A stretch of DNA of 64,000 nucleotides from an uncultured Alphaproteobacteria bacterium (GTDB lineage Bacteria; Pseudomonadota; Alphaproteobacteria; UBA6615), in NCBI GenBank assembly GCA_943787745.1, contig CALSNJ010000001.1:186001-250000 (forward strand), given 5' to 3'. Made by a program: the position numbers and the translations under genes. The stretch's first letter is position 1. Every line of letters starts with the position of its first letter. Under the pieces are notes generated by a model. It saw only the letters and a program-made list of their open reading frames with translations. It did not search any database and had not been told where the DNA came from. Positions 13,698 to 42,155 of this stretch are shown in pieces.

Positions 13698-13773
13698 GGG
13701 GCCGTAGCTCAGTTGGGAGAGCGCTACGTTCGCAACGTAGAGGTCAGGGGTTCGATTCCCCTCGGCTCCACCA
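13698..13773 (+). tRNA. tRNA-Ala (anticodon CGC)
   Basis: A complete cloverleaf is readable. The acceptor strand GGGGCCG pairs with CGGCTCC with a G3-U70 wobble, the identity element of alanine tRNAs. The anticodon stem CTACG/CGTAG encloses loop TTCGCAA with anticodon CGC, which reads GCG codons. The T-arm is AGGGG-TTCGATT-CCCCT and CCA is encoded (13771-13773). The 3' 26 bases recur at 16042. Confidence 0.96.
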
Positions 13774-13816
13774 TTTTTATCAACGTCTCCAATGACTTAG
13801 ATGAAATTCGACGAAA

Positions 13817-13849: not shown

Positions 13850-14015
13850 CTTAGAATGTCTTGGACGTTTCCGAGACATTCTGCCGGATATGGTACTTCG
13901 TCTCTGGAGGCCGAATTCCCAGCCAATACTTTTGGGGAAATCAGGTGGTAACCGTACGAATGCCGTTGGGCAGATTCGTGACTTCGCGCGTGATCGACCG
14001 AACTTCTTACGCGAG
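13850..14015 (-). pseudogene. decayed second copy of the His-rich secreted-protein gene (intact copy at 16125-16769)
   Basis: Read on the minus strand, 13951-13998 gives ITREVTNLPNGIRTVTT and then a stop. This aligns with ITREVTELANGIRTVTRS in the intact gene at 16125-16769. A second patch at about 13866-13900 gives HIRQNVSETS against HAAEVSDMA of the same protein, with the stretch between them shortened. A TAA lies in frame just before the first patch. I infer a truncated, non-coding relic. Both copies lie on the minus strand just downstream of a tRNA-Ala 3' end. Confidence 0.6.
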
Positions 14016-16041: not shown

Positions 16042-16067
16042 TTCGATTCCGCTCGGCTCCACCATTT
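16042..16067 (+). repeat. truncated duplicate of the tRNA-Ala 3' end
   Basis: Twenty-six bases, from the T-loop through CCA and into a T-run, match 13751-13777 of the intact tRNA-Ala almost base for base (one substitution in ttcgattccSctcggctcc, where S is C in the tRNA and G here). The similarity weakens after that but gtctcc recurs in both flanks (13785, 16075). No 5' half of a tRNA is present. Such 3' ends are typical scars of integration at tRNA genes or of segmental duplication. Confidence 0.75.
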
Positions 16068-16124
16068 TCTCACGGTCTCCGAAAATCTGAATGCCTGGTG
16101 GTCGCGTCCGGGATGCTGGAAGGC

Positions 16125-16769
16125 TTAACGCCTTGGGGACATGCCGGCGCGTTCCATCATCATCTCGTGAACTGCCTGCATGCCACGGTCTGCCATGTCC
16201 GAAACCTCCGCAGCATGGGTCTGGAGCGCGGTGACGATTTCCGGGTCGTCCGAGGTCTGGACCACGACAATTCCTTCTTCGGTCACATCAATTTCGGATT
16301 GAATGGTTTCGCCGCGCATGAAAAAGATGTCCAGTGTCGGGCTTTGAATCATGATTTTCGGGTCATCACCGTTCTCAACCCGGCCAATCATTCCGACCAC
16401 GTGGCTGACGAGGTTGGTCATCACGTCCGCGTCTGAAGACCGGGTGACCGTGCGGATGCCGTTGGCCAATTCGGTCACTTCGCGCGTGATGGTTTCGAAA
16501 TTCCGGAACAGCACAGCCAGTTCTGCACTTTCCTCGGGTGTTGCGTTCTGGCCGCGCAGGCCCGGCATATTCACTTCGTCATGCCCGGTGCCATCTGCAC
16601 CATGTCCATGTCCATGTCCATGTCTGTGCCCGCTGCCCGGGCCATTGTCCTTCATCTGTGCCAGCGACGTACTTTGCGACAAATCATAAATCCCGCCGGT
16701 CAACAGCAACGCGGCAGCAAGGGCTGTTCTGATAAGAAGTCTGGAGAATTTGGAAGCTTGGATCGTCAT
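16125..16769 (-). CDS. secreted histidine-rich protein, unknown function, behind a MerR-type promoter
   Basis: 214 residues. A signal peptide (RTALAAALLLTGGIYDLSQS) ends near residue 38. It is followed by a short low-complexity stretch of alternating His and Gly (residues 48-57, HRHGHGHGHG), a likely metal-binding tether. The rest (about 70-214) is a soluble, mostly helical domain without a family I recognise (TREVTELANGIRTVTRSSDA, MIGRVENGDDPKIM, QAVHEMMMERAG). The promoter at 16826-16856 is of MerR type, so a metal or oxidative signal is plausible. A decayed copy lies at 13850-14015. Confidence 0.8.
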   Translation of the reverse strand: MTIQASKFSRLLIRTALAAALLLTGGIYDLSQSTSLAQMKDNGPGSGHRHGHGHGHGADGTGHDEVNMPGLRGQNATPEESAELAVLFRNFETITREVTELANGIRTVTRSSDADVMTNLVSHVVGMIGRVENGDDPKIMIQSPTLDIFFMRGETIQSEIDVTEEGIVVVQTSDDPEIVTALQTHAAEVSDMADRGMQAVHEMMMERAGMSPRR

Positions 16770-16825
16770 CTTTGTGTCCTGATACCGTCACAGCGGCCGA
16801 GCGTGATCGCGTCGGGCGGACCCAG

Positions 16826-16856
16826 TTTATAGAGCTTCCTCTTACAGGAAGGTCAA
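16826..16856 (-). promoter_or_regulatory. MerR-family-type promoter with 19-bp spacer
   Basis: On the minus strand the sequence reads TTGACC at 16856-16851, then a 19-base spacer, then TATAAA at 16831-16826. The spacer contains the inverted repeat TTCCT..AGGAA. A 19-bp spacer with a dyad inside is the hallmark of promoters activated by MerR-family regulators such as CueR, ZntR or PbrR. It lies 57 bases upstream of the ATG of the histidine-rich protein. No merR-like gene is in the window. The rest of 16857-17076 shows no gene. Confidence 0.75.
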
Positions 16857-42007: not shown

Positions 42008-42155
42008 CGGCTTTCCTTTCATTGGAAGGTCCACCGTTGTGGTTCGGTAACATGCTGGCACCGACCCACACCGGTGCACATCTCTGTCTGCGTCAGAGTG
42101 TCGCATATCGTGTCGGTTTTGGCGAGCCTTTGCGCGAAACGCCGGAATTCGTGCG

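Follow-up and report, generated by a model that had tools for sequence, protein, structure and literature searches.

The promoter at positions 16826-16856 of the window (the whole 64,000-nucleotide stretch of DNA analysed here, C1:186001-250000) is very probably under CueR and copper control. It lies on the minus strand in front of a gene for an exported, His-rich protein. This gene appears to belong to the copper response as a lineage-specific member not listed before, and not to mark a new type of switch. The switch itself is textbook; it is the target family that is without description in the libraries searched. This unnamed family, carried by many Rhodobacteraceae and by metal-resistance plasmids, would gain a concrete candidate role in envelope copper handling, and the locus would provide a clean example of a copper regulon acquiring an unlinked member in one lineage.

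Promoter architecture

Read from 16856 to 16826 on the minus strand, the sequence is TTGACC TTCCTGTAAGAGGAAGCTC TATAAA, consisting of a -35 element (16851..16856), a 19-bp spacer (16832-16850) and a -10 element (16826..16831). An earlier note on this DNA had described a MerR-type promoter with a dyad-bearing 19-bp spacer, leaving the strand unstated, and this description holds for the minus strand. The combination TTGACC-N19-TATAAA occurs once in the window, at this site, and in none of 100 dinucleotide shuffles. The dyad ACCTTCCTGTAAGAGGAAGCT in the spacer region agrees with the CueR/HmrR dyad ACCTTCC-N7-GGAAGGT at 13 of 14 positions, and the predicted operator, ACCTTCC-TGTAAGA-GGAAGCT (16833..16853, minus strand), overlaps the -35 element and fills the spacer. 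The ATG of the His-rich gene, at 16769, lies about 57 bp past the -10 element and is preceded by a likely ribosome-binding site, AGGA (16777..16780, minus strand), 7 nt to its 5′ side. Three sequence features by which a CueR-regulated promoter is recognized are present: the 19-bp separation, the dyad between the two elements and a CueR protein in the genome. An Rfam search found no RNA element at the promoter.

Spacers of 19 bp are too long for sigma70, and apo-CueR keeps such promoters inactive until the metal-bound protein kinks the spacer and both hexamers become engaged (PMC9909328). The same CueR/HmrR signal and 19-bp rule, as well as unlinked CueR targets such as cueO and cytochromes, were reported by Permina et al. 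2006 (PMC1526738).

The window holds a further box-like site, at 42010-42030, with two mismatches. It was rejected as a chance occurrence, since its end almost touches the ATG-side of a CBS-domain-like gene, just 5′ of the start codon, and its upstream flank shows no -35 and -10 elements in promoter arrangement. The segment 17080-17360, which separates the promoter from katG, reads, by eye, like a broken adenylate-cyclase gene.

The probable regulator and its predicted sites in the genome

The earlier note had seen no MerR gene nearby and had called for a distant regulator as well as for a genome search for merR genes and for the motif. The genome (3.27 Mb in seven contigs, 97.9% complete) encodes three clear MerR-family (MerR_1) proteins, at C1:272108, C2:205119 and C2:320225, all outside the window, and only one of them is a metal sensor. 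The protein at C1:272108, 69 kb from the promoter, scores 171 bits against the NCBIfam CueR equivalog TIGR02044 (cut-off 147). Aligned to the solved E. coli CueR, it keeps both metal-loop cysteines (CHGDDRPDC versus CPGDDSADC) and carries Ser, not Cys, at the dimerization-helix position equivalent to E. coli Ser77 (KSGDV aligned to HSADV). Its gene heads a cueR-copA operon, with the copper P-type ATPase gene copA directly 3′. Judged by sequence, this regulator is CueR, the only metal-sensing MerR protein found in the genome. Neither the protein at C2:320225, which adjoins an IHF-like gene, nor that at C2:205119, which adjoins a thioesterase-like gene, passes a metal-sensor cut-off, and both were therefore dismissed as regulators. 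Distant control, which the earlier note treated as remarkable, is less unusual than it supposed, as unlinked CueR targets are normal and include E. coli cueO and Salmonella cueP.

In genome-wide pattern searches, ACCTTCC-N7-GGAAGGT with at most one mismatch is found in two places only, the 16826-16856 promoter and the cueR-copA promoter. The stricter pattern TTGACCTTCC-N7-GGAAG, again with at most one mismatch, returns the same two places, and its reversed control returns none. The cueR-copA promoter, TTGACC-TTCCAGTTACTGGAGGGTC-TATCTG, likewise has a 19-bp spacer, and the two boxes lie 69.2 kb apart on one contig. Elsewhere in the genome, a cytochrome c gene (C2:736580; L111:1431-1467) is preceded by a half-degenerate CueR box, TTGACC-TTCCAGCGGGGTAACCCTG-TAAACG, in which the 19-bp spacing and the left half-site are intact and the right half is weakened; relatives carry the full box. 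Across 24 family genomes the strict pattern gives 39 matches (2 for the reversed control); the majority precede cueR or copA, and in several cases the next gene is an unlinked one for a secreted cytochrome c. The predicted CueR regulon in this genome would then consist of cueR-copA plus the His-rich gene, with the cytochrome c gene as a possible further member.

In the proposed mechanism, apo-CueR, encoded in the cueR-copA operon at a distance of 69 kb, would occupy the dyad in the absence of copper, while the over-long spacer leaves the -35 and -10 elements out of phase. On binding Cu(I), or Ag(I) or Au(I), CueR would kink the spacer and allow RNA polymerase to open the promoter. Rising Cu(I) would induce copA together with the His-rich gene: the CopA pump would clear the cytoplasm, and the exported His/Met-rich protein, to judge from its composition and gene context, may hold copper in the envelope and so serve a protective function.

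The target protein and its relatives

The gene (16125..16769, minus strand) encodes 214 amino acids with a signal-peptide-like N-terminus and a His-rich stretch, GSGHRHGHGHGHGADGTGHD, at residues 45-64 (16578..16637, minus strand), whose side chains are putative copper ligands; the secreted His-rich product named in the earlier note is therefore borne out. Four His (63, 123, 185 and 201) and five Met (68, 127, 197, 203 and 204) are invariant in the family. Searches of Pfam and NCBIfam returned no family above cut-off, the named periplasmic copper-protein models included, which places the gene outside the usual copper genes, as had been supposed. The AlphaFold model has a confident core (pLDDT at least 90 for 118 residues) made of two alpha-beta-beta-alpha units. 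Because the two halves are detectably alike in sequence (hhalign E 2e-6 and blastp 9e-8, each a one-pair comparison), this (alpha-beta-beta-alpha)2 domain probably arose by duplication. Fold searches against solved structures gave no confident match, the best being Z 4.9 to unrelated proteins and a Foldseek E of 0.05 or worse, and a family-profile sequence search of solved structures found nothing credible. Neither an enzyme fold or catalytic motif in the protein nor a phage homologue was found. From composition and gene context, it is somewhat probable that the protein binds or buffers periplasmic copper.

Rhodobacteraceae, along with a small number of further alphaproteobacterial records, contain orthologues at 55-72% identity. 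Plasmids of Neotabrizicola, Mycolicibacterium, Mycobacterium and Acidithiobacillus carry distant homologues, which are surrounded by genes for resistance to arsenic, cadmium and mercury. No closer orthologue in intact form came to light in 24 order and family genomes or in 385 genomes of the class. Among the 24 family genomes the gene is absent, apart from a promoter-less C-terminal remnant in a same-genus relative (L071:10558-10707), the sole same-genus homologue found, which retains the last 51 codons and holds the same position beside a FAD-synthetase-like gene. No operon partner of the His-rich gene is conserved across all loci.

The CueR box does not accompany the orthologues. At 41 orthologous loci (485 kb) no box was found with at most two mismatches, and it is also absent at two further orthologues and at the plasmid homologues. 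Absence of the motif from orthologous promoters, which the earlier note had named as grounds for refutation, is what these 41 loci show. All 20 orthologue-bearing genomes searched for the box contain it elsewhere, mostly at copper genes, with many copies before copA, copper chaperones, a DUF411-like protein or cytochromes (gene names by eye). Since these genomes have boxes at other genes, the absence at the orthologues argues for a lineage-specific gain and not for a false site. As far as the sequences tell, the CueR site at the His-rich gene was gained in this lineage or retained here alone.

The surroundings of the gene contain repeated tRNA sequence. The 3′ end of tRNA-Ala(CGC) followed by TTTT, 27 bp of which 26 are identical (TTCGATTCC[C/G]CTCGGCTCCACCATTTT), lies at 13751-13777 and again at 16042-16068. 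The copies are 2.3 kb apart, and the second is 57 bp from the stop of the His-rich gene. They have the look of termini of an integrated segment, which suggests past mobility. A 21-codon fragment of a second copy of the family, SITREVTNLPNGIRTVT, lies at 13944-14006 on the minus strand, a relic 170 bp past the tRNA-Ala, and is nearer to the Rhodobacteraceae consensus than is the intact gene. A fuller account can be offered only tentatively, at slightly less than even chances. The protein would represent a so far undescribed family of envelope proteins that handle metals, combine a His/Met-rich N-terminus with a duplicated alpha-beta-beta-alpha domain and are found in Rhodobacteraceae and on metal-resistance plasmids. 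In this lineage the gene, which lies beside duplicated tRNA-Ala ends and possibly came with a mobile segment, would have been placed under CueR.

Alternative explanations concern either the role of the protein or the control of its gene. CueR could control the gene while the protein serves sulfur or redox metabolism or general envelope metal stress, with copper as a mere signal. In nine Rhodobacteraceae loci (L050-L053, L059-L063) the gene lies inside an Rrf2/Crp/YeeE/rhodanese/persulfide-dioxygenase/SulP cluster, a link to sulfur metabolism, and the plasmid homologues adjoin arsenic genes, merA, cadmium/LspA and TlpA-like genes. Because of these two contexts, copper may not be the general ligand of the family. 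However, the richness in His and Met and the operator that the gene and the copper pump have in common are consistent with a role in copper handling, and the search for an enzyme fold or catalytic motif was negative, so that this alternative appears rather unlikely, if the most serious of those considered.

That the box is fortuitous or decayed and has no regulatory effect is improbable. It is missing from all orthologues examined, and the same genome shows decay of a CueR-like box in front of its cytochrome c gene, but the site at 16826-16856 has the correct strand, a suitable distance to the gene, a spacer of exactly 19 bp and a good -10 element, and in all 3.27 Mb only cueR-copA offers another such place. 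Control by another MerR-type sensor, for zinc, lead/cadmium, mercury or SoxR-like redox signals, draws on a promoter architecture common to the whole MerR family, and is more improbable still. Among the three MerR_1 proteins CueR alone passes a sensor cut-off, and zinc, lead, mercury and SoxR regulators were not found, so control by these was rejected; an assembly about 98% complete could lack such a gene, but this is unlikely. The dyad is of the CueR/HmrR type and differs from the signals published for ZntR and MerR. Since CueR is the sole metal-sensing MerR protein found and the dyad is CueR-type, the predicted inducer is copper. The metal or redox stimulon of the earlier note is accordingly kept as to metal and narrowed to the CueR ligands Cu(I), Ag(I) and Au(I), while zinc, lead and redox drop out.

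Comparison with known copper systems

A close counterpart of the His-rich gene, as a predicted CueR target, is E. coli cueO. PcueO (TTGACCTTCCCGTAAGGGGAAG) and PcopA of E. coli match the operator pattern exactly, and PcueO is nearly identical to the promoter at 16826-16856. Both cueO and the His-rich gene have the TTGACCTTCC-N7-GGAAG operator of the CueR regulon, a 19-bp spacer, a location unlinked to cueR and an exported product. The product in E. coli, however, is a multicopper oxidase, whereas here it is an unnamed His-rich protein.

Salmonella CueP offers a parallel as a CueR-controlled periplasmic copper protein, as is predicted for the protein described here, and as a lineage-specific addition to the regulon (PMC8966772; PMC13201067). 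In contrast to CueP, for which both control and biochemistry are known, the His-rich protein is without a match at family level in Pfam and NCBIfam, and its role is read from composition and context.

A CueR box, a 19-bp spacer, an exported product and a location away from cueR are also combined in unlinked cytochrome c genes, which were predicted as CueR targets in Vibrio (PMC1526738) and are found here in relatives. They differ in that the product is a haem protein, and in this genome their box is degenerate. The alphaproteobacterial HmrR-ActP copper system has a near-identical operator and an orthologous regulator; here, however, cueR precedes copA, and the regulon has an extra, unlinked target.
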